Shown here one piece after another: positions 1 through 45,797 of a stretch of 64,000 nt of DNA; the first letter of the stretch is position 1, and each line of letters begins with the position of its first letter. The stretch comes from Nakamurella flava (GTDB lineage: Bacteria; Actinomycetota; Actinomycetes; Mycobacteriales; Nakamurellaceae). Location: NCBI RefSeq assembly GCF_005298075.1, contig NZ_SZZH01000001.1:992001-1056000 (forward strand), read 5' to 3'. The position numbers and the translations under genes were made by a program. Under the pieces are notes generated by a model that ran no database searches, had not been told where the DNA came from, and saw only the letters and a program-made list of their open reading frames with translations.

Positions 1-1
1 G

Positions 2-610
2 CTGCAGCCGTGGACCCTGGCGGCCGACGGCACCCTCGACCCGGCGGGAGCCGGCGCCGCTCAGGGTGCGGGCGTGGCCGGGCGCGACTATCTCTGCCTG
101 GGAACGGGTCTGGGCCGGCCGAAGCATGCCCACCCGCTGTCCCTGCCTGCGCTGCTGACCTGGGACAGTTCCCCGCTGGCCGGTGATCTCGACGTCGTCG
201 GTGACATCGAGGCCGAGCTGGTGGCCAGCACGACGGCGCCGGACACCGCCTGGATCCTCACGCTGCAGGACGTCGCGCCGGATGGCACCGTGGTCGACGT
301 GACCGCCGGCTACCTACGGGCCAGCCTGCGCACCGTCGACGGGCAGGCCAGTCGACCCGGTGCGCCGGTGCTGCCGTGCCGCGAGTTCGCGCCGGTACCG
401 ACGGGTGAGCCGGTGACCTACCGGATCCCGCTGGTACCGAACGCGCGCCGGTTCGCCGCCGGCCACGTCCTCCGCGCGGTGCTCACCAGCGACGACCAGG
501 ACCCGTCGACCCCGGCCATCATGGAGTTCCGGCACGCTCCGGTCGGGACAACTTCCCGCAACACCGTCTTCGGGTCGTCCCGGCTGCTGCTTCCGGTGCT
601 GCCGGCGTGA
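2..610 (+). CDS. CocE/NonD-type hydrolase, C-terminal part (gene begins before the window)
   Basis: The frame is open from base 2 to a TGA at 608-610, giving 202 visible residues with no start in the window. The visible part matches the non-catalytic beta-sandwich domain at the end of X-Pro dipeptidyl-peptidase/CocE serine hydrolases: 'PLAGDLDVVGD', a 'DVAPDG' turn, 'GYLRASLR' and a late 'AGHVLRAVLTSDD'. The alpha/beta-hydrolase domain with the Ser-Asp-His triad must lie upstream, so the substrate cannot be judged. The stop overlaps the next start in a GTGA junction, so the two genes are probably co-translated. Confidence 0.8.
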   Translation: MQPWTLAADGTLDPAGAGAAQGAGVAGRDYLCLGTGLGRPKHAHPLSLPALLTWDSSPLAGDLDVVGDIEAELVASTTAPDTAWILTLQDVAPDGTVVDVTAGYLRASLRTVDGQASRPGAPVLPCREFAPVPTGEPVTYRIPLVPNARRFAAGHVLRAVLTSDDQDPSTPAIMEFRHAPVGTTSRNTVFGSSRLLLPVLPA

Positions 611-1338
611 GCCCCGGCGCCGTCCGGTGGTCCCGCGCCTGGCACGCGGTCATCCTGGTCGACGTCCTCATCGCGCTCGGTCTGCAGCTGTGGTTGGTGT
701 TCACCGGCGGTCCCGATCCGAACACCGGCGACACCGCCGCCTCGGTCGGGATCGGCACCCGGCTGATCCAGACGATCAGCTTCTTCACCATCCAGAGCAA
801 CCTGCTGGTGCTGGCCGTGGCGATCGGCCTGGTGCTCGACCCGGCCCGGGACGGCCGCTTCTGGCGGGTCCTGCGGCTGGACGCCCTGCTCGGGATCGTC
901 ATCACCGGGCTGGTCTTCGACACCATCCTCATCCACTACGTGCACCCGTCCGGCTGGCAGCTGGTCGCCACGATCGGACTGCACTACCTGGCGCCCTGGC
1001 TGACCCTGCTCGGCTGGCTGCTGCTCGGGCCGCGCCCCCGGTTCGACCGGGCGACCCTGGTCTGGTCGCTGCTGTGGCCGGCCGCCTGGATCGCCTACAC
1101 CTTCATCCGCGGGGCCGTCGTCGACTGGTACCCGTACCCCTTCCTGGACGTGCAGGAGATCGGTCTCGGGGCGGCGATCCGCAACACCGGCATCGTGCTG
1201 GTCGTCGCCGGCGTGGTGCTGGCGATCCTGCTGCTCATCGACCGGCGGTGGCCGACCGGTCAGTCCCGGTGGCGGGCCCACCAGCGCAGCGTGGACAGCA
1301 CGACCAGCGCGGTCGACCCGAGGACGACGAACAGGTAG
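607..1338 (+). CDS. Pr6Pr-family integral membrane protein
   Basis: This 243-residue protein has about six hydrophobic spans, starting with 'HAVILVDVLIALGLQLWLV' and ending near residue 215. The 'FFTIQSNLLVLAVAI' segment and the 'DWYPYPFLDV' loop before the last span are marks of the Pr6Pr family, whose biochemical role is unknown. It starts at GTG 607, overlapping the upstream hydrolase stop by four bases. The hydrophilic tail after about residue 217 overlaps the end of the convergent gene on the other strand by 79 bp, so the tail may be poorly conserved. Confidence 0.75.
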   Translation: MSPGAVRWSRAWHAVILVDVLIALGLQLWLVFTGGPDPNTGDTAASVGIGTRLIQTISFFTIQSNLLVLAVAIGLVLDPARDGRFWRVLRLDALLGIVITGLVFDTILIHYVHPSGWQLVATIGLHYLAPWLTLLGWLLLGPRPRFDRATLVWSLLWPAAWIAYTFIRGAVVDWYPYPFLDVQEIGLGAAIRNTGIVLVVAGVVLAILLLIDRRWPTGQSRWRAHQRSVDSTTSAVDPRTTNR

Positions 1339-1553
1339 CAGAAGGCCAGCAGCACGCCGGTGCCCAGGTTCGCGGTCGGCGGGCGCTCCGGGTAGAGCCA
1401 CACCGGCAGCCAGATCGAGACCGCTCCCAGCGCCCCGACCACGACGAAGGCGGCCGCCGTGAGCAGCCACCGACGATCCTGCGACCACTGCCGGAACCCT
1501 GACGTCACCGGCCCACTGTGCCCGAGAAGCGCGCAACCGTGTCCGACCCGCAC
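1260..1553 (-). CDS. small two-TM membrane protein, unknown
   Basis: About 97 residues with two clear membrane spans ('LLTAAAFVVVGALGAVSIWL' and 'GVLLAFCYLFVVLGSTALVV') joined by a short loop containing 'YPERPPTANLGTG'. No family is recognised. The start is uncertain: GTG 1553 gives the full length, while GTG 1508 gives a shorter N-terminus just before the first span and looks more natural. It converges on and overlaps the Pr6Pr gene. The regular spacing of hydrophobic spans makes a real gene more likely than a shadow. Confidence 0.55.
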   Translation of the reverse strand: MRVGHGCALLGHSGPVTSGFRQWSQDRRWLLTAAAFVVVGALGAVSIWLPVWLYPERPPTANLGTGVLLAFCYLFVVLGSTALVVLSTLRWWARHRD

Positions 1554-1588
1554 TCTCGGAACCGCCCCGACGGGATCGGTCCACTTCG

Positions 1589-1617
1589 CCCCGCTGGAAC
1601 CCCACCCCGGAGCGGGG
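1589..1617 (-). terminator. weak hairpin downstream of the broken AspT-like gene
   Basis: CCCCGCT (1589-1595) and AGCGGGG (1611-1617) form a perfect 7-bp GC stem around a 15-base loop, just past the stop at 1623 of the leftward pseudogene. There is no T-tract, which is common for actinobacterial terminators, but the long loop makes the assignment weak. Confidence 0.3.
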
Positions 1618-1622
1618 GAACG

Positions 1623-2237
1623 TCAGGGCTCCTGGTCGAGCGCGCCGAGCAGGTCCTTCAACCCCAGCCCACCCAGGCGCAGCGCCTCGAACTCGAGCGT
1701 GGTCCCGGTCGAGGTGTCGGTAGGCGACTGGGACGAGATCGCTCCATTCCTTCAGGATCATCGCGTCCTGCGGGAGCCCGACGATCGAGCCTTGACCCAC
1801 CCCGACGACCGCGGACTGGGTCAGCCCGCCCCCGGCGACCCCGGCCGCCAACCCCGGATTCAGGCCGAGGATCGCGGCGACCGCGAGGACGACGGCGAAG
1901 CCCACCACCGAGAGCACGGCCGCGAACACGGCCTGCGGTGCGCCGGACCCCTTGAGTCCGGCGACGAACTGTGGGCCCAACCGGATACCCAACGCGAACA
2001 GGAACAACAGGAAGAACAGCGACCGGGCCGGACCGTCGACGTGAGGGTGCGCACGCTGCTATCCGCGCCTTCCACGGCGACGACCGCGCCGAGCGCCACC
2101 CCCACCATCAGGGTCCCGGTGACAGTGCCCAGCGTCAGCGACCGGAACCGGGCCCGGCCGAGCCCCGCACCGAGGCCGACCGCGAGCGGGACGGCGATCT
2201 CCGGATGGGCGATGAGCGACCGGGCCAGCCACTCCAC
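1623..2237 (-). pseudogene. truncated, frameshifted AspT/YidE-type antiporter
   Basis: From GTG 2237 the first frame reads as the start of an aspartate:alanine exchanger-type (Asp-Al_Ex) membrane domain: 'AHPEIAVPLAVGLGAGLG' and 'GTLMVGVALG'. Near 2035-2045 the homology jumps to another frame with 'FFLLFLFALGIRLGPQF' and 'GLNPGLAAGVAGGGLTQSAV', ending at 'DLVPVAY' near 1722. A third frame then runs to a TGA at 1623-1625. Full-length family members are about 550 residues, with two such domains around TrkA-C domains; only about 200 residues remain here. Two shifts plus the truncation point to a decayed gene rather than a sequencing slip. Confidence 0.75.
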
Positions 2238-2405
2238 CTACCGATCCGTCCGATCGGCGGCGGGCGCAGTCATGCGATCACCGTACGGTCCGGAATCTCC
2301 CTCCCGTACCGCTCTCGTCCCGAGGGTCCAGTGCGCGAAGCACCGTTCGTGTCGATCTGTCCGGTCCGGGAACCTTCATCCTCGACGTGAGAGTGAGGTG
2401 TCGAA

Positions 2406-2633
2406 ATGAGCACGGCCACGATCGTCACCATCTACCTGAGCTTGACGGTCATCATCGTGCTGCTGGTGATCATGCTCGTGCACTGGCGCCGGTTCCGGTA
2501 CGAGACGGACCGACTCAAGGCGTGGCAGGCCGTCTACGGGCGCACCGGCGGAAAGGTGGCGATCGCGGTCGGCATCGTCGCGCTGGCCGTGCTGGTCGGG
2601 GCGTTCGCGGCCGCGACGGCCGGCCCGCCCTGA
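2406..2633 (+). CDS. small two-TM membrane protein
   Basis: 75 residues with an N-terminal span ('IVTIYLSLTVIIVLLVIMLV'), a basic cytoplasmic stretch with 'WRRFRYETDRLKAWQ', and a second span ('VAIAVGIVALAVLVGAFAAA'). GAGGTG sits six bases before ATG 2406. No family is recognised. Its TGA shares one base with the ATG of the methyltransferase gene (TGATG at 2631-2635), so the two are probably translated together. Confidence 0.65.
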   Translation: MSTATIVTIYLSLTVIIVLLVIMLVHWRRFRYETDRLKAWQAVYGRTGGKVAIAVGIVALAVLVGAFAAATAGPP

Positions 2634-3334
2634 TGTTCGCCGAACGGCTGGCACCGTCCGGCACCCTGGACGGGGTGACGTCCTCCCCCTTCGCCGCCGG
2701 TGACTTCCCGGCCGGCTTCTTCAGCCGCGAGGACCCGTCGCCGGACGCCGATTTCTACGACCCGCCGCGACTGGTCACCCACATCGACGACGGCGCGATC
2801 GCCGCGGTCGGCGACCTCTACGCCGAACTCGGCCTGGACGGCGACGCCCACGGGCCGCGCCGGGTGCTGGACCTCATGTCGTCCTGGGTGTCGCATCTGC
2901 GGTCCGCCCCGGCCGAGCTGGTGGTGCTCGGCATGAACGCGGCCGAGCTCGACGCCAACCCCGTGGCCACCGAACGGGTCGTGCAGGATCTCAACTCCGA
3001 TCCCACGCTGCCGCTGCCCGACGCCTCCGTCGACGGGGTGCTGTGCTGCGTGTCGATCGATTACCTCGTCCGACCGGTGGAGGTGCTGGCCGAGGTCGCG
3101 CGGGTGTTGCGCCCCGGCGGCCCGGTGGCGATCACGTTCTCGAACCGCTGCTTCCCGACCAAGGCGATCCGCGGCTGGCTCCTCACCGACGACGCCCAGC
3201 ACTGCGCCATCGTGGCCGAGTACCTGCGGCTGGCCGGCGGCTTCACCGAGCCCGAGGCCTCGCTCCGCACGCCGTCGGGCCGCTACCACGGCGATCCGTT
3301 GTACGCGGTGGTGGCCCGACGCGAGGCTGACTGA
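2633..3334 (+). CDS. class I SAM-dependent methyltransferase
   Basis: 233 residues from ATG 2633. The Rossmann-type core is recognisable: 'RRVLDLMSSWVSHL' holds motif I, 'VVLGMNAAEL' the acidic-loop strand, 'LPLPDASVDGVLCCVSIDYL' motif IV and 'EVLAEVARVLRPGGPVAITF' motif VI. The first glycine-rich loop is replaced by a 'LMSSW' version seen in a widespread group of small bacterial methyltransferases of unknown substrate. The start is set by the TGATG overlap with the upstream membrane-protein gene. About 190 bp without a gene follow, containing several short CTGACGC repeats but no clear hairpin. Confidence 0.75.
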   Translation: MFAERLAPSGTLDGVTSSPFAAGDFPAGFFSREDPSPDADFYDPPRLVTHIDDGAIAAVGDLYAELGLDGDAHGPRRVLDLMSSWVSHLRSAPAELVVLGMNAAELDANPVATERVVQDLNSDPTLPLPDASVDGVLCCVSIDYLVRPVEVLAEVARVLRPGGPVAITFSNRCFPTKAIRGWLLTDDAQHCAIVAEYLRLAGGFTEPEASLRTPSGRYHGDPLYAVVARREAD

Positions 3335-3521
3335 CGCGGGCGCCTGACGCCGACCATTTCCGCTGACGCTGGTCGACCGCGCTCGAGCTGCTCAACCGCG
3401 CCGACGCTGTTCAGCGGCACTGACGCTGAGGTTTGACCGGTGGGGCGCTCCACGACGCCGGTTCGGCATTGATGGTCAGCGCCGGCCACCGTCCAACCCC
3501 GCCCCGGACAGCACGCACCAC

Positions 3522-4733
3522 TCAGCCCCGTCGCGGCTCCCCGCGGCGCGGCAGCCAGTAGCCGAGCCACCCGGCGCCGAGCAGGCCGACCACGCCCATG
3601 GCGCCGATGCCGACGCCGACGGTGGCCACCGCGGTGACCCCGGCGATGACGAACGGGCCGACCCCGCCGCCGGTGTCCGCGAACACCCGCCAGACCCCGA
3701 GGAACACGGCGCGCCGGTCGGGTGGGGCGAGGTCGGCGCCCAGGGTCATGACGATGCCCGCACTCAGCCCGTTCCCGATGCCCAGGACCAGGCCGACGAT
3801 GATCATCGAGGCCACACCGGTGGTGAACGGCAGGGCCAGCAACGCGACCCCGAGCACCAGCATCGACGGCACCCCGACCCAGGTGCGGCCGCGGCGGTCC
3901 ATGATCGACCCGGCCGGGTAGAAGAGCAGCATGTCGATGGCGCCGGAGATCCCGAAGATCACCGAGATGGTCGCCGGGGACAGTCCGAGCTGCTGCCCCC
4001 ACAGCGGCAGCGCCACCTGACGGGCCGCCCGCACCGCGCTGACGATGAGCACACCGACGCCGAGAGTGGCCAGCACCGGACGGTTGTCGCGGACGGTGCC
4101 GACCAGCGACGGCCGCTGAGTGATCGCACCTGCGGCCACCGGCTCACTGAGGTCCCGGGCGCACAGCAGCACCCCGACAGCCAGCACCGCCGCGACGATG
4201 TGCACCCAGTACGCACCGTCGGTACCGAAGAGCGCGATGGCGCCGCCGCCGATGAAAGGCCCGACGAAGAGCCCGATCCGGAACACCCCACCGAGGGTCG
4301 ACATCGCCCGGGCCCGCAGCCGGAACGGCACCACCGCCGTCAGGTAGGCCTGCCGGGCCAGCAGCCAGACCGCGGTGCCGACGCCGGTGAGGAAGATGGC
4401 GACCGTGAACAGTCCCAGGCTCGGCGCCACGATGCAGCCGAACAACGCTAGGATCGTCAGGCCGGCGGCGGCGACCATGGTGCGGCGTTCCCCGAAGCGG
4501 TGCACGATCGCCCCGGCCGGCACGTCGGCCACGATCTGCCCGAGCCCGGCCGAGGCCACCACCAGCGCGGCGGCAGCCGGACTGGCACCGAGTTGCGCGG
4601 CCGACACCACCACCACCGGGGCGATGGCGCCCTGCCCGACGGCGAACACGGCCGGCGGGATGAAGGCCCCCGGGGCCAGCGACCACAGCGACAGGTCCGG
4701 GTCGGGGCCCTGCGGATCGGGATGCGCCGACAC
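3522..4733 (-). CDS. MFS transporter
   Basis: 403 residues with about twelve hydrophobic spans. The loop between spans 2 and 3 has the MFS signature 'GAIVHRFGERRTMV', and a matching 'GSIMDRRGRTWVG' occurs at the start of the second half. The start is a GTG at 4731-4733, directly after the TAG of the upstream alpha/beta-hydrolase gene with no spacer, which argues for one transcript. The substrate cannot be read from the sequence; drug or small-metabolite efflux is the usual role of this set of MFS proteins. Confidence 0.8.
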   Translation of the reverse strand: MSAHPDPQGPDPDLSLWSLAPGAFIPPAVFAVGQGAIAPVVVVSAAQLGASPAAAALVVASAGLGQIVADVPAGAIVHRFGERRTMVAAAGLTILALFGCIVAPSLGLFTVAIFLTGVGTAVWLLARQAYLTAVVPFRLRARAMSTLGGVFRIGLFVGPFIGGGAIALFGTDGAYWVHIVAAVLAVGVLLCARDLSEPVAAGAITQRPSLVGTVRDNRPVLATLGVGVLIVSAVRAARQVALPLWGQQLGLSPATISVIFGISGAIDMLLFYPAGSIMDRRGRTWVGVPSMLVLGVALLALPFTTGVASMIIVGLVLGIGNGLSAGIVMTLGADLAPPDRRAVFLGVWRVFADTGGGVGPFVIAGVTAVATVGVGIGAMGVVGLLGAGWLGYWLPRRGEPRRG

Positions 4734-5435
4734 CTACAGGTACTCGCACAGTCGCTCGGCCAGCTCGACCGGCCGGCTGAGCGCGACCAGGTGCCCGCCG
4801 GGCATCTCGTCGACCGTCACCCCGAGCGGCCCGAGTCGTTCGGCGACCACCCGGCGCTGGAACTCCAGCGGGAAGAACCGGTCGTCCCGGCCCTGCAGGA
4901 ACCGGGTGGGCACGTCCGGCCAGCGGTCCAGCGGGAACGGATCGGCGAACGGACGGTCGGACTGTGCCAACTCACCCCGGGCGAAGGCGGCCGCGGTGAC
5001 CGCCGCCGGGACGTCGTGGAAGAAGGCATTGCCGATCCAGTCGTCGGCCTCCGGGTCCCATCGCGCCGCCCGGGCGGCGGCGACGTAGGCCTGCCGGTGT
5101 CCGGTTGCCGACCACCACTGACCGCCGGTCTCCCCCGGCCGCGGGGTCATCGCGTTGAGCAGCACCAGCAGTCGCACCGGGAGCCGGTCGCAGAGCAACG
5201 GTGCGGTCAGCCCGCCCATCGATTGCCCGACCACCACCACATCCGACCGATCCACTTCGGAGCGGTCGACCGCGGCGACCGCAGCATCGACAGAGACGTC
5301 CAGACCGGCCTTCTCGTCATCGGCCGGCAGGTCGACCGGCACGACGCGGTGGCCCCGGGCGCGCAGCTCGGGGACCACCAGGTGCCAGTACCAGGCGTCT
5401 CCCCCGGCTCCGGGGATCAGGACGACGGTGCTCAC
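4734..5435 (-). CDS. alpha/beta hydrolase
   Basis: 233 residues of a compact alpha/beta-hydrolase fold. 'VVLIPGAGGDAWYW' near the N-terminus forms the oxyanion loop, 'VVVVGQSMGGLTAP' carries the nucleophile Ser in a G-x-S-x-G elbow near residue 73, 'LQGRDDRFFP' supplies the acid, and 'MPGGHLVALSRP' near the C-terminus the His. The triad looks complete, so it should be an active esterase or related hydrolase of unknown substrate. It is upstream of, and directly abuts, the MFS transporter gene. Confidence 0.8.
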   Translation of the reverse strand: MSTVVLIPGAGGDAWYWHLVVPELRARGHRVVPVDLPADDEKAGLDVSVDAAVAAVDRSEVDRSDVVVVGQSMGGLTAPLLCDRLPVRLLVLLNAMTPRPGETGGQWWSATGHRQAYVAAARAARWDPEADDWIGNAFFHDVPAAVTAAAFARGELAQSDRPFADPFPLDRWPDVPTRFLQGRDDRFFPLEFQRRVVAERLGPLGVTVDEMPGGHLVALSRPVELAERLCEYL

Positions 5436-5497
5436 CGACCCGACGCTAGCCGCTCGTTCGTGCGATGCCGACCGCCGGTGATCCGTACTCTTCGGAC

Positions 5498-5866
5498 ATG
5501 CATCGCATCTTCACCACCAGCGTCGCATCGGTGTATCCCCACTACGTGGCCAAGGCGGAACGCAAGGGCCGCACCCGGGCCGAGGTCGACGAGGTCATCG
5601 AGTGGCTGACCGGGTTCGACCATGTCACGCTGGACCGGCATCTCGACGACGGCACGACTTTCCAGGACTTCTTCGCCGCCGCCGAGCTGTATCCGGCCGC
5701 CGAGCTGATCACCGGCTCGGTGTGCGGGGTCAAGGTGCAGGAGGTCGAAGACCCGCTGATGCGCCGGATCCGCTACCTGGACAAGCTGGTCGACGAGCTG
5801 GCCAAGGGCCGGCCGATGAGCAAGGTGCTGCGCACCCCGGTCGCCGGGCCGGCCCCGACCGGCTGA
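5498..5866 (+). CDS. DUF2200 family protein
   Basis: 122 residues that match DUF2200 along their length: '[17 protein letters not shown]' at the start, '[20 protein letters not shown]', '[18 protein letters not shown]' and '[17 protein letters not shown]' at the end. Function is unknown; the family is small, soluble and widespread. ATG 5498 was preferred over an upstream in-frame start because family members begin with 'MHRIF'. Its stop directly abuts the stop of manA on the other strand. Confidence 0.85.
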
Positions 5867-7147
5867 TCAGGAAGCGACGGCCGAGACGGCGTCCTCCGCC
5901 GGGGCGGCCGCGACGGCGGTCTTCTTCGGGACGCCGAGCCCGTCGCGGGCCCGGAACACGGTGCCGGTCCCGCTGATCCACACGCGCCCAGGAGTGGCCG
6001 GGATGAACACCGACGAACCCGGCTTGAGGGTGAGGGTGCCGTCCCTGAGGTCGGAAACGGTGATCTCGCCCTCGGTGGCCAGCAGCACCTGCGGCCCCGA
6101 ATGTTCGATCATCTGCTCGTCGCCGGACTTCAGCGTCAGCCGGGACAGGGCGAATTCACTGGTGGGCGTGCGGAAGTCGACTTCCAGCGGGCCGACGCGC
6201 GACGGCTTGACCCGCTGCATCCCGCCGGGGGTGTAGTCCAGGGTGCGGGTGAGCTCGTCGATGTCGACGTGCTTGGGCGTCAGGCCGCCCCGCAGGACGT
6301 TGTCCGAGCAGGCCATGATCTCGACGCCGAGGCCGGAGAGGTAGGCGTGCATGTTGCCGGCGCCCAGGTAGATGGCCTCACCGGGCTGCAGGACGACCCG
6401 GTTGAGCAGCAGCACGACGATGACCCCGGCGTCCGTCGGGTATCGCTCGGCGATGTCGACCACGGTGCGGTATTCGGCGGCGAACTCGCCGTCCTGGCCC
6501 GCCGCGGTCCGGCAGGCACCGACGATCGCGTCCAGCGCAGCGGTCAGCTTTTCGGCGGGCATCGCCAGGATCGAAGGGACCAGTTCGGCCAGGCCGTCGG
6601 CCCCAGGCTGCTTCCGCAGAGTGTCGGCCAGCGCGGTCGCCGCGGGCACGTCGAGGGCGTTGAGCAGCCGGACCGTCTCGGCGGTGTCGCGGAAGCCGGC
6701 GAGCGCCACGAACTCGGTGAGCGCCACGATCATCTCGGGCTTGGGGAACGGATCCTTGTAGTTGCGGTGGCCGGCGTCGACCGGGATCCCGCGGGCCTCC
6801 TCGTCGGCGAACCCGGCGCGGGCCTGCTCGGCGGTCGGATGCACCTGCAGGGACAGCGGCGCGTCGGCGGCCAGCAGCTTGAGCAGGAAGGGCAGTACCT
6901 CTCCGAACTCGGCGGCGACGGCGCCACCGACCGCACGGCTCGGGTTCTGCTGGATGTAGTCGAGCAGCGATGTGGGCGCCGCGGACGGGTCGCCGACCCC
7001 GGTGTGCAGATGGGACGGATCGCCCGGGTGGGCGCCCACCCACATCTCGGCCTGCGGCTCGTCGGAGGCGGGCTCGCCCAGCAGGGTGGCGATGGCGGTC
7101 CGCGAACCCCACGGGTAGGGGCGGATCGCGTTCTGCATCAGGTACAT
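5867..7147 (-). CDS. manA: mannose-6-phosphate isomerase, class I
   Basis: 426 residues of a type I phosphomannose isomerase, interconverting mannose-6-phosphate and fructose-6-phosphate and so feeding GDP-mannose and glycan synthesis. 'NAIRPYPWGSRTAIA' opens the protein; the metal site includes 'SLQVHP' near residue 100 and 'YLGAGNMHAYLSG' near residue 270; 'GDEQMIEHSGPQVLL' lies in the C-terminal cupin. GGAGTG is close upstream of ATG 7147. The 270 bp between it and the siroheme synthase gene hold a possible TAGGCT -10 box on the minus strand but no other gene. Confidence 0.92.
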   Translation of the reverse strand: MYLMQNAIRPYPWGSRTAIATLLGEPASDEPQAEMWVGAHPGDPSHLHTGVGDPSAAPTSLLDYIQQNPSRAVGGAVAAEFGEVLPFLLKLLAADAPLSLQVHPTAEQARAGFADEEARGIPVDAGHRNYKDPFPKPEMIVALTEFVALAGFRDTAETVRLLNALDVPAATALADTLRKQPGADGLAELVPSILAMPAEKLTAALDAIVGACRTAAGQDGEFAAEYRTVVDIAERYPTDAGVIVVLLLNRVVLQPGEAIYLGAGNMHAYLSGLGVEIMACSDNVLRGGLTPKHVDIDELTRTLDYTPGGMQRVKPSRVGPLEVDFRTPTSEFALSRLTLKSGDEQMIEHSGPQVLLATEGEITVSDLRDGTLTLKPGSSVFIPATPGRVWISGTGTVFRARDGLGVPKKTAVAAAPAEDAVSAVAS

Positions 7148-42423: not shown

Positions 42424-43734
42424 TTACCGGGCCGGTCCGCCCAGCACGCCGCGCAGGTCCTGCGCCCAGGTGCCGGTCTCGGCGACCACGATCTCGCCCA
42501 GGCCGAGCCAGTCCGCGAGCGACCGCAGCACCCCGGCGGCCCGGACGGTCAGGTCCGGCCCCGTCGGCACCCCGGGCTCCCGCCACGCGGCCGGGACCAG
42601 CAGCCGCCCGGTGGCCCGATCGGCCTTCAGATCGAAACGCCCCACGATCCGGTCGCCGATCAACAACGGCAGGACGTAGTAGCCGTGCACGCGCTTGGCC
42701 GCCGGGGTGTAGATCTCGATGCGGTAGTGGAAGTCCAAGAGCCGCTCGTCGCGGGGCCGGAACCAGACCAGCGGGTCGAACGGCGAGACGAGGGCGGCGC
42801 CGTCGACCGCGCGGGGCAGCCGGGCGTCGCGGTGCCGATAGGCGGGCTCCCGCCAGCCGTCCACCGCGACCGGCTGGAGTTCGCCGGCCTCGACCAGTTC
42901 GGCCACCGCCCGCCGGGCCCCGGCGACCGGCAGCCGGAAATAGTCGGCCAGGTCGGTCGCGGTGGCGATGCCGAACGCGGTGGCCGCGTGGGCGACCAGT
43001 GCGCGGTGGGCGTCGGCCGGGTCGAGTGTCGGGGTGGCGATGATCTCCGGCGGGAGCACCCGCTCGGACAGGTCGTAGAGCCGCTCGAAGCCCCGCCGCC
43101 GGGCCACCGCGAAGACCCCGGTCCCGAACAGGAACTCGCAGGCCTGCTTGGTGGCCGACCACTCCCACCAGCCGGCCTGGCCCCGCCGCGGCTGGTGCGC
43201 CCGCTCCTGGAGTTCGGCCTCGATCTCCCCGGCCGACCGGGGACCGAGATCGCGCACGATGTCGACGATCTCCTCGATGACGCCCGGGTGCTGGGCGCGC
43301 AGGCGGCGCGCATGCCGTTCCCAGCGGGTGGCCAGCTGCTGCTGTTTCCACCGGAGCAGGGGCATCGTCTCCACCGGCACGAGCGACGCCTCGTGGGCCC
43401 ACGTCTCGACCAGGGCGCGGTGCCGCTCACCGCGGGATGTGGCCGGCCAGGCCACCCGGTCGAGCAGCGCGGTGTCGTACGACCCGAGCCGGCTGAACAC
43501 CGGCATCAGATGGGCCCGGGCGAGCACGTTGACCGAGTCGATCTGCAGCAGACCCAGCCGACGCACCAGCTTGACCAGGGCCGCTGCGGTCACCGACCCG
43601 CCGGTCGACGCCGGCGGGCGGTGCAGGCCCTGCGCGGCGATGGCGATGCGCCGAGCCTGGGCGATCGTCAACGACGGACCGGCCGGCGGCGGCACCGCGG
43701 ACTTCGGGGACGTCATGGGGATCGATGGTGTCAT
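42424..43734 (-). CDS. YcaQ/AlkX-type winged-helix DNA glycosylase
   Basis: 436 residues. 'LTIAQARRIAIAAQGL' begins the domain; 'RLGLLQIDSVNVLARAHLMP' (catalytic-site Q-x-D region near 63) and 'FSRLGSYD' follow. The middle is winged-helix ('GPRSAGEIEAELQE', 'WWEWSATKQACEFLF'). 'VSPFDPLVWFRPRDERLLDFHYRIEIY' (core: SPFDPLVWFRPRDERL) is the strongest signature. E. coli YcaQ unhooks interstrand DNA crosslinks; a similar DNA-repair role is likely. The N-terminal start at ATG 43734 may be a few residues too long (ATG 43716). Confidence 0.85.
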   Translation of the reverse strand: MTPSIPMTSPKSAVPPPAGPSLTIAQARRIAIAAQGLHRPPASTGGSVTAAALVKLVRRLGLLQIDSVNVLARAHLMPVFSRLGSYDTALLDRVAWPATSRGERHRALVETWAHEASLVPVETMPLLRWKQQQLATRWERHARRLRAQHPGVIEEIVDIVRDLGPRSAGEIEAELQERAHQPRRGQAGWWEWSATKQACEFLFGTGVFAVARRRGFERLYDLSERVLPPEIIATPTLDPADAHRALVAHAATAFGIATATDLADYFRLPVAGARRAVAELVEAGELQPVAVDGWREPAYRHRDARLPRAVDGAALVSPFDPLVWFRPRDERLLDFHYRIEIYTPAAKRVHGYYVLPLLIGDRIVGRFDLKADRATGRLLVPAAWREPGVPTGPDLTVRAAGVLRSLADWLGLGEIVVAETGTWAQDLRGVLGGPAR

Positions 43735-43776: not shown

Positions 43777-44274
43777 TCAGGACGTCGATGACGTCTCCTC
43801 GTCGTTGCGGTCTGCGAGGGGCGGCTCGTCGGGTGTGCCCAGTGACCGCACGACGGACCGCAGGGCATCGAGCATCCGGGTCTGGTCCCCGGCCGACAGC
43901 CCGCCCAGCATGCGGACCTCGACCGCCCGGACCGCTTCGCTCGCTTCGCGCAACGCCGCGTGCCCGCTCGCGGTCAGCTGCACCGGCAGCACCTTGCCGA
44001 CGGAGGGCTGGGCCGGGCGGGTCACCAGACCCTCCTTTTGAAGAGCCTGCAGCAGCACGTTCATCGACTGCCGCGTGACGAACGCCCCCCGCGCCAGAGC
44101 GCTGTTGGACAGGCCGGGCCGTTGGGCCAGCAACTCCAGGCAGGAGTAGCGGGTGACGGTCATGCCGAGCGGGCGCAGCACGTCTTCCATCGCGATCCGC
44201 AGCGCGGCCGAGGCCTGTTTGAGCAGATAGCCCACTGACACCTCGAGATCGATCACGCCGCCGTCTTGACTCAT
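43777..44274 (-). CDS. MarR-family transcriptional regulator
   Basis: 165 residues. The winged HTH spans 'MTVTRYSCLELLAQRPGLSN', 'SALARGAFVTRQSMNVLLQ' (recognition helix) and the wing 'VTRPAQPSVGKVLPVQLTASG', flanked by dimerisation helices. It is divergent from the VOC-protein gene. Two matching inverted repeats lie between the genes, and one covers its own start codon, so it probably represses both. No Cys or clear ligand pocket residue suggests the inducer. ATG 44274 is chosen because an earlier in-frame start would run through both operators. Confidence 0.88.
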   Translation of the reverse strand: MSQDGGVIDLEVSVGYLLKQASAALRIAMEDVLRPLGMTVTRYSCLELLAQRPGLSNSALARGAFVTRQSMNVLLQALQKEGLVTRPAQPSVGKVLPVQLTASGHAALREASEAVRAVEVRMLGGLSAGDQTRMLDALRSVVRSLGTPDEPPLADRNDEETSSTS

Positions 44275-44290
44275 GTCAGCATCCTGACAT
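44273..44290 (+). promoter_or_regulatory. MarR operator 1
   Basis: ATGTCAG-CATC-CTGACAT is a perfect inverted repeat with 7-bp arms. It overlaps the marR start codon (44272-44274), fitting autorepression. Confidence 0.75.
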
Positions 44291-44299
44291 AGCTTCTTC

Positions 44300-44317
44300 G
44301 TGTCAGATAACTGACAC
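44300..44317 (+). promoter_or_regulatory. MarR operator 2
   Basis: GTGTCAG-ATAA-CTGACAC is a perfect inverted repeat sharing TGTCAG-N4-CTGACA with operator 1. Its centre is 27 bp from that of operator 1, and it ends 21 bp before the VOC gene start. Confidence 0.78.
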
Positions 44318-44338
44318 ACACGAGCGAGGAGCCATCCC

Positions 44339-44707
44339 ATGACGGTCACCGGTCCCGACTTCATCTCCCTGCAGGTGCGCGATCTGGCGGCATCCCAGGC
44401 GTTCTACGAGCGCTACCTCGGCCTGACGCGCACCCCGGCCGGGCCGCCGCACGCCGTCGTCTTCGACACCCGGCCGGTGGCCTTCGCCGTGCGCGACCTC
44501 GCTCCGGGGACCGACCTGTCCGGCGTCGCCCAGCCCGGCGTCGGCATCGGCGTCTGGCTGCACGCCGAGCAGACGCAGTCCATCCACGACGCGCTGGCCG
44601 CCGACGGTCACCCCATCGTCACCGCCCCGTTCGACGGGCCCTTCGGCCGGACGTTCACCTTCGCCGACCCCGACGGCTACCAGATCACCCTGCACGACCG
44701 GGGCTGA
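44339..44707 (+). CDS. VOC-superfamily (glyoxalase/bleomycin-resistance fold) protein
   Basis: 122 residues with the paired beta-alpha-beta modules of the vicinal-oxygen-chelate fold: 'FISLQVRDLAASQAFYERYLGL' at the start (core: VRDLAASQAFYERYLGL) and 'GRTFTFADPDGYQITLHDR' at the end, with the usual late 'DPDGY-x-I-x-L' and a terminal acidic/His metal region. It may be a dioxygenase, lyase or antibiotic-binding protein. GAGGAG lies eight bases before ATG 44339. It is controlled, by inference, by the divergent MarR through two operators. Confidence 0.88.
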   Translation: MTVTGPDFISLQVRDLAASQAFYERYLGLTRTPAGPPHAVVFDTRPVAFAVRDLAPGTDLSGVAQPGVGIGVWLHAEQTQSIHDALAADGHPIVTAPFDGPFGRTFTFADPDGYQITLHDRG

Positions 44708-44825
44708 CCGCCATCCTCGGACGGGGGGCTGGGGCTGATGTGCCGTCGTCCCGTCCCCGCCGTCGGGGTCAAGTGTGCGAGGGTGCACCACGGCCGGTCG
44801 TGACCCGGCCGCGAGGGAGGTCCAG

Positions 44826-45797
44826 GTGGCGACGCCACTGGTGGTCAGTGCAGTCGTCCTGCGGGACGCGGCCGGACGGGTGTTGACCGTGCGCAAGACC
44901 GGGACCAGCCGGTTGATGTTGCCCGGCGGCAAGCTCGAACCGGGCGAAAGCCCGGCCGCGGCCGCCATCCGGGAGTCCCGGGAGGAGATCGGAGCCGAAC
45001 TCGACGAAGGACTGCTCCGCCCGCTCGGGGTCTTCGACGCCGCCGCGGCCAACGAACCCGGCCGGACCGTCACCGCGACCGTCTTCGAGCATCCGCTGGT
45101 CCCGATCGGAGCCCCGGCGGCGGAGATCGAGGAGGCCACCTGGGTCGAACTGGACGACCCGCGGCTGGCCCCGCTGCTGGCGGAGGCGATCTTCCCGGTG
45201 CTGCGCGGACGCGGCCCGTTCCGGCTGGCGATCTTCACCGGGTCGGCCGCCGGTGACTCCCCCGCCTTCGCCGACGCCGCCGCCAGACTGGCCCGGGCGC
45301 TGGGCGACGCCGATGTCGGCGTGGTCTACGGCGGCGGCCGGGTCGGCCTGATGGGGGTCGTCGCCGACACCACGCTCGCCGCGGGCGGCACGGTGGTCGG
45401 CGTCATCCCGCAGGGGCTGGTCGACCGGGAACTGGCCCACCGCGACCTCACCCGGCTGGAGGTGGTGCCCGACATGCACGCCCGCAAGCTGCGGATGGCT
45501 GAACTGGCCGATGGTTTCGTCGCGCTGCCCGGTGGTGCGGGCACCCTCGAGGAGCTGTTCGAGGTGTGGACGTGGCAGCAACTCGGCATCCACGGCAAGC
45601 CGGTCGCGCTGTACGACGTCGACGGGTACTGGCAGCCGCTGCTCCACGCCCTGGACACGATGACCGCCCGCGGGTTCCTCTCACAACGGTTCCGGGACGG
45701 GCTGATCGTCGTGGACAACCCGGCCGACCTCCTGGATGCCGTGCGGTCGTGGACGCCGCAACCGTCGAAATGGCAGGGCGATCCGGCGCGCGGTTGA
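44826..45797 (+). CDS. NUDIX hydrolase fused to LOG/TIGR00730-type phosphoribohydrolase
   Basis: 323 residues from GTG 44826, with GGGAGG upstream. Residues 1-130 are a NUDIX domain with an intact box (G-x5-E-x7-REUXEE-x-GU seen as 'GKLEPGESPAAAAIRESREE' plus IGA). Residues about 135-320 are a Rossmann-type LOG domain with 'VGVVYGGGRVGLMGVVAD' and the diagnostic 'ALPGGAGTLEELFEVWTW'. LOG proteins release bases from nucleoside 5'-monophosphates; NUDIX enzymes cut nucleoside diphosphate-X bonds. One polypeptide could therefore take a nucleotide diphosphate derivative to monophosphate and then to base plus ribose phosphate. No frameshift or stop separates the domains. Confidence 0.88.
   Translation: MATPLVVSAVVLRDAAGRVLTVRKTGTSRLMLPGGKLEPGESPAAAAIRESREEIGAELDEGLLRPLGVFDAAAANEPGRTVTATVFEHPLVPIGAPAAEIEEATWVELDDPRLAPLLAEAIFPVLRGRGPFRLAIFTGSAAGDSPAFADAAARLARALGDADVGVVYGGGRVGLMGVVADTTLAAGGTVVGVIPQGLVDRELAHRDLTRLEVVPDMHARKLRMAELADGFVALPGGAGTLEELFEVWTWQQLGIHGKPVALYDVDGYWQPLLHALDTMTARGFLSQRFRDGLIVVDNPADLLDAVRSWTPQPSKWQGDPARG

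Follow-up and report, generated by a model that had tools for sequence, protein, structure and literature searches.

The present analysis of a 64,000-nucleotide stretch of DNA from Nakamurella flava (hereafter called the window) identified a gene, located at 44826–45797 on the forward strand, that encodes a 323-residue protein combining a NUDIX domain and a LOG domain in a single reading frame. This fusion is real, rare and patchily distributed, and it is apparently uncharacterized. Our preferred reading, to which we give a probability of roughly 0.55, is that the protein is a two-step nucleotide-degrading enzyme, its NUDIX half and then its LOG half acting on one nucleotide. Three of the alternatives weighed below (house-cleaning of the nucleotide pool, cytokinin activation, and the use of other nucleoside diphosphate derivatives) mainly represent other substrates for the same two-step scheme, and their odds overlap with it. 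In our view, bacterial LOG proteins were named after a plant hormone step while the role of most of them is unclear, and a fused partner acting just before LOG would be a direct handle on its real substrate. Whatever the NUDIX half converts to a monophosphate would be what the LOG half is for, and the fusion could in this way reveal the role of bacterial LOG enzymes.

Gene and domains of the fusion

Translation of 44826–45797 gives 323 residues and a single stop codon, at the end. The frame is open upstream to 44739 and includes alternative GTG starts (for example at 44775); although the frame could begin earlier, the GTG at 44826 was taken as the start because a likely ribosome-binding site, GAGGGAGG (44813–44820, forward strand, read from the sequence), ends 5 bases before it. 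The preliminary description had reported an intact NUDIX box and an intact LOG motif within one uninterrupted frame preceded by a ribosome-binding site, and this was borne out by translation, Pfam and NCBIfam searches and motif mapping. An artefact of frame or assembly, or a chance arrangement, can be ruled out since the fused architecture is kept in other organisms at 52–63% identity.

The N-terminal half belongs to the NUDIX family, residues 6–119 (44841–45182) matching PF00293 (Pfam, E 2e-16, 60.6 bits for a cut-off of 21.1). Its Nudix box, GKLEPGESPAAAAIRESREEIG (residues 35–56, 44928–44993), is complete with respect to the pattern G-x5-E-x7-RE-x2-EE-x-G, all the Arg and Glu residues of which are there. 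A Ser follows RE, at a position that the textbook pattern assigns to a bulky aliphatic residue. The box is also intact in all eight other fused proteins checked. The substrate specificity of this NUDIX domain is not readable from its sequence.

A junction of 14 residues (120–133, 45183–45224), delimited by the Pfam and NCBIfam domain limits and by a helix (116–128) and a strand (133–137) of the structural model, contains a short linker preceded by the C-terminal end of the last NUDIX helix. It is followed by the LOG domain (residues 134–308, 45225–45749), a member of the type I LOGs according to TIGR00730 (NCBIfam, E 5.4e-53, 179.4 bits for a cut-off of 96.35); PF03641 (Lysine_decarbox, which corresponds to the LOG family) matches residues 176–305 (Pfam, E 1.4e-42). 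A lysine decarboxylase activity, as in the old Pfam name, is rejected for the family in the available text of two papers (PMC4979012, PMC5379747). The PGGxGTxxE motif is found as PGGAGTLEE (residues 235–243, 45528–45554) and is preceded by MHARK (residues 217–221, 45474–45488). In the type Ia LOG of Corynebacterium glutamicum, the available text of PMC4979012 assigns catalysis to Arg99 and Glu122 and the pocket to Met96, His97, Lys100, Glu125 and Trp129, and it reports a phosphoribohydrolase activity on AMP. The two catalytic residues correspond to Arg220 and Glu243 of the fusion, where Met217, His218 and Lys221 line the base/prenyl pocket; the type Ia prenyl-pocket set is complete with Glu246 and Trp250. 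Overall, 13 of 13 checked residues of the C. glutamicum enzyme are identical (Ser140, Met217, His218, Arg220, Lys221, Gly237, Ala238, Gly239, Thr240, Glu242, Glu243, Glu246 and Trp250).

An AlphaFold model of the monomer has a mean pLDDT of 92.2 and a pTM of 0.77; its input alignment retained 32 of 34 rows initially collected. Both domains are confidently modelled; because of the pTM, their relative orientation is less sure. Among the best 50 rows of each fold search, no solved chain matches both domains well; mycobacterial MutT1 chains were aligned over some 285–291 columns, but with an rmsd near 14.

The enzymes nearest in fold to the NUDIX half are of the MutT type (for example 3hhj, 3grn and 3r03), which speaks for the main rival of our reading, namely house-cleaning: the NUDIX half would remove damaged or deaminated (d)NTPs and the LOG half would destroy the resulting monophosphate, thereby blocking its rephosphorylation. 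However, fold does not give specificity and the similarity to MutT is weak, the score with the TIGR00586 model (28.4 bits) lying under the curated cut-off of 97.9. A gene encoding a predicted AlkZ-like DNA glycosylase (PF06224, E 3.8e-68) is located nearby on the reverse strand (42424–43734) and is adjoined by a MarR-type regulator gene (43777–44364). The proximity of this predicted glycosylase gene would also suit house-cleaning but may be due to chance. Conserved neighbors were sought as a clue to the substrate by comparing 12 stretches, and they are common only to close relatives (L059/L061, L063/L064 and L074/L076); this sharing of neighbors by close relatives only counts against house-cleaning, which we consider a tentative possibility.

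Two Ap6A-hydrolase chains are also found among the fold matches (Z 16.0). They point to another type of substrate, since the NUDIX half could act on a different nucleoside diphosphate-X compound (ADP-ribose, an NAD-like molecule or a dinucleoside polyphosphate) and supply AMP to the LOG half, so that the fusion would work in AMP/NAD turnover. The hydrolysis of AMP by the C. glutamicum LOG (available text of PMC4979012) agrees with this proposal. Nevertheless, the corresponding NCBIfam score is far under the cut-off of 403 bits, and the available text of PMC5379747 indicates that AMP hydrolysis by type II LOGs needed a long incubation, with levels similar to those of the C. glutamicum type I enzyme. 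We regard AMP/NAD turnover as unlikely.

Fused, linked and separate copies in other bacteria

The distribution of the fusion was examined by scanning one genome per species, 80 of 93 relatives being kept. Within the genus of the window's strain, the fusion is present in one genome out of 17; one other genome has a LOG match, one other a NUDIX match, and 14 are devoid of any match at E 1e-25. Among 394 genomes of the class, 148 match at E 1e-30; among the matches listed, nearly all are due to the LOG part and only the window's own covers both domains fully. Likewise, 52 of 296 genomes of the phylum match at E 1e-50 and, among the matches listed, only that of the window spans both domains. These counts in genus, class and phylum show that the fusion is rare and patchy.

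A total of 138 loci were fetched by matching the window protein, and linkage was defined by a NUDIX part with at least 40% identity and a LOG part with at least 45% identity. Close NUDIX and close LOG sequences occur together in 16 of these loci, seven of which (the window and L059–L064) have them in one stop-free frame. The six other fused copies are actinobacterial (two Arthrobacter, two Propionibacteriaceae assemblies, one Propionicimonas assembly and Plantactinospora mayteni) and keep the order NUDIX then LOG; taken together with the Cutibacterium plasmid copies described next, they display 52–63% identity with the window protein.

Furthermore, 179 records of a plasmid collection match the fusion, including five Cutibacterium records in which a single place holds 80% or more of the query (52–53% identity). 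The two that were read in frame have one frame and both motifs; the plasmid copies are annotated as "TIGR00730 family Rossman fold protein" or "hypothetical protein". This carriage fits horizontal spread, although both plasmids fetched (L144 and L145) are typed non-mobilizable. None of the 23 matching phage records covers 80% of the query. On both fetched plasmids (about 1–7000), a TadG-like pilus gene and a small CopG/ribbon-helix-helix gene are found upstream of the fusion gene. The PLSDB gene table labels a 210-base hypothetical gene of the Cutibacterium modestum plasmid (L144, 12194–12403) as the tetracycline efflux pump tet(59); this label may be wrong, as the gene looks too short for an efflux pump.

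Unfused pairs were found as well. In Cryobacterium flavum, C. luteum and C. algoritolerans, a separate NUDIX gene ends in TAATG, whose ATG can start the LOG gene (overlap of one base). In four genomes of one genus (g53), LOG precedes NUDIX, the matched parts being 42–96 bases apart, and in one further genome an unfused NUDIX gene lies ahead of LOG. A plasmid of Klebsiella pneumoniae carries a pair in the order LOG-NUDIX with an overlap of 8 bases; this pair was sought in E. coli genomes, where no match was obtained. The search for separate adjoining NUDIX and LOG genes in relatives, proposed with the preliminary description, was thus positive, but for a minority of loci (five of the 28 new LOG loci from the class-genome search). 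A Nudix box is present in seven of these 28 loci (98,071 bases), whereas the 17 LOG-only loci (162,758 bases) include one; four of the seven come from one genus and two others belong to a different Nudix subfamily, and the LOG-only loci are a biased control, chosen as lacking a close NUDIX. In two genomes of another genus (L033 and L035, g85), the 3.6 kb locus with LOG also contains a Nudix gene of a different kind. One LOG with 70% identity to that of the window (L069, 5001–5567) is on a contig labelled Sporosarcina beigongshangi (Bacillota), which indicates either transfer or contamination.

Each domain also exists alone in many loci, an observation consistent with the reading that the two domains have unrelated substrates or that the NUDIX domain serves just for regulation or binding. 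All 17 LOG-only loci are devoid of NUDIX at E 1e-5, the absence by which this set was defined, and 53 of the 54 loci found through NUDIX (L085–L138, some of them cut short by contig ends) are devoid of LOG at E 1e-5. The exception is a second copy of C. flavum (L087, 5001–5924), broken and split over several frames. In Arthrobacter sp. NIO-1057 (L065, 5001–5726), a stop codon lies within the NUDIX part while the LOG frame is open; LOG may therefore not need NUDIX, and this broken NUDIX again suits unrelated functions. By contrast, the intact Nudix box of the eight other fused proteins and the linkage in both gene orders argue against unrelated substrates, a reading that appears improbable. The LOG of C. 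algoritolerans (L076, 5390–5980) has the sequence PGGTGMLGE, which departs from PGGxGTxxE, and judging from this motif it may be inactive or altered.

When 73 NUDIX domains were placed on a quick tree, the eight fused ones grouped with one linked neighbor (L050, on a long branch) with a support of 95, and a tree in which the fused domains alone are held as a clade is not rejected (p-AU 0.74). In the LOG tree (62 domains), the fused copies are interspersed with stand-alone LOGs and many forks are unresolved; seven changes were counted compared to a mean of 7.7 for shuffled labels (129 of 500 shuffles being as low), so that the fused rows are not clustered beyond shuffled labels. LOG pieces with less than 45% identity or shorter than about 140 residues and NUDIX pieces with less than 38% or shorter than about 95 residues were dropped from the trees, and L023 and L087 were also excluded from the p-AU tests. 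Gene order and the quick tree hinted at separate origins for the linked NUDIX domains, but a single clade was compatible with these tests (p-AU 0.346 for fused and Cryobacterium, 0.376 for fused and LOG-first, and 0.235 for all). As even the last value leaves a common origin of all linked NUDIX domains standing, the tests do not demonstrate that the linkage arose repeatedly and independently. Both trees could be accounted for by a single fusion event and later losses of NUDIX, one of which is visible in Arthrobacter sp. NIO-1057; exchange of LOG domains is another possibility.

A bolder reading would be that NUDIX-LOG is a mobile, self-contained and channelled cassette, plasmid-borne, sporadic among actinobacteria and assembled more than once. 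It would act on a single specific nucleoside di- or triphosphate, either modified or a signal, and convert it directly to a free base and ribose 5-phosphate, for detoxification or defence and not for cytokinin signalling. This reading is a long shot, given that the two fetched Cutibacterium plasmids are non-mobilizable and that a single origin of the linkage is not rejected.

Proposed reaction and candidate substrates

In the two-step reading that we prefer, the NUDIX half, with Mg2+ or another divalent metal, would split a phosphoanhydride bond of a purine nucleoside di- or triphosphate, probably base-modified, to give the 5′-monophosphate. The LOG half, acting as a dimer, would then cleave the N-glycosidic bond of this monophosphate, releasing the free base and ribose 5-phosphate, as suggested by a close relative with tested activity. 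According to the available text of a 2021 review (PMC7913349), rice LOG uses cytokinin monophosphates but not di- or triphosphates; a NUDIX partner would therefore supply the monophosphate that LOG can use, which is the simplest reason for the linkage. Furthermore, the recurrence of this linkage (fusions, overlapping neighbors and pairs in reversed order) supports two steps on one pathway. It should also be emphasized that several points count against the two-step reading: LOG is often devoid of a NUDIX neighbor and most loci found through NUDIX are devoid of LOG, the NUDIX part of Arthrobacter sp. NIO-1057 is interrupted by a stop, the fusion is rare, the C. algoritolerans motif deviates, the fused LOGs do not cluster, a common origin of all linked NUDIX domains is compatible with the tests and the pTM is 0.77.

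In cytokinin activation, the NUDIX half would convert a prenylated nucleoside di- or triphosphate to isopentenyladenosine monophosphate, from which the LOG half would release isopentenyladenine. The fusion conserves the prenyl-pocket residues of the C. glutamicum LOG, and the available text of PMC7913349 proposes such a role, the hydrolysis of cytokinin nucleotides, for Nudix proteins linked to LOG. MiaA is present in all 12 genomes tested, and prenylated adenosine is therefore expected in their tRNA. Phosphorolytic RNA decay would yield this adenosine as a diphosphate. Prenylated nucleotides from tRNA decay, including diphosphates, are thus a possible source of substrate. However, the score with NF058542, the NCBIfam equivalog of cytokinin riboside 5′-monophosphate phosphoribohydrolases, is 132.2 bits for a cut-off of 300. 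Moreover, a search for adenylate isopentenyltransferase (PF01745) gave no match in the window's genome, where only the tRNA enzyme MiaA was found, nor in six others of the 12; in the remaining five, every match is confined to the first 103 of the 233 positions of the family and overlaps with that genome's own MiaA match. Although PF01745 may not cover every adenylate isopentenyltransferase, such an enzyme would be expected for de novo synthesis of cytokinin di- or triphosphates, and its lack of a match in the window's genome weakens this version. Overall, cytokinin activation has a low probability.

The preliminary description had proposed sequential activities, with a cytokinin-like di- or triphosphate as one of the candidate substrates. 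Sequential action on one nucleotide still appears the best reading of the fusions, overlapping genes and reversed-order pairs, whereas the cytokinin di- or triphosphate version has lost ground with the PF01745 result. Salvage or detoxification of a modified nucleotide, which was also proposed there, is a candidate role. As substrate of the two-step enzyme, we favor an adenine nucleotide that is modified or damaged and that stems from RNA turnover or from the nucleotide pool, over a signalling cytokinin triphosphate.

Comparison with known systems

No biochemical study of a NUDIX-LOG fusion was found in the open-licence literature searched; the available text of PMC8234997 and PMC5379747 does not mention nudix, and that of PMC5389931 mentions neither lysine decarboxylase nor cytokinin.

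Among enzymes of known structure, the C. glutamicum type Ia LOG Cg2612 (PDB 5ITS and 5ZBL) strongly resembles the LOG half (5its_A, Z 31.2, 60% identity over 183 residues in VIA-align), but its solved chain covers the LOG part of the fusion alone (residues 130–312). The MutT-type Nudix hydrolases (PDB 3HHJ, 3R03 and 3GRN) have the same fold as the NUDIX half (Z 16.8–17.2); they differ in that they align with this part alone and with a low identity (24–28%), the fusion being below the cut-off of the MutT model. The PpnN/YgdH nucleosidases of E. coli and its relatives share the LOG-like core (Z about 18 over 177 residues) but with only 19% identity and with longer chains. These nucleosidases act on nucleoside monophosphates and carry accessory domains other than NUDIX.

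According to the available text of PMC7913349, which cites Samanovic et al. 2015 (Mol Cell), LOGs share operons with Nudix hydrolases or are fused to them, and the general form of both the LOG-Nudix fusion and the sequential idea is therefore already in print. As far as can be judged from the description in this review alone, these operons and fusions have the same domain pair as the fusion reported here, and the logic proposed for them is the same. The same review describes IPT-LOG fusions in Rhodococcus fascians, Claviceps purpurea and Fusarium, in which LOG is likewise fused to an enzyme presumed to make its substrate. However, the partner prenylates a nucleotide in these IPT-LOG proteins, whereas in the window fusion it would trim phosphates.
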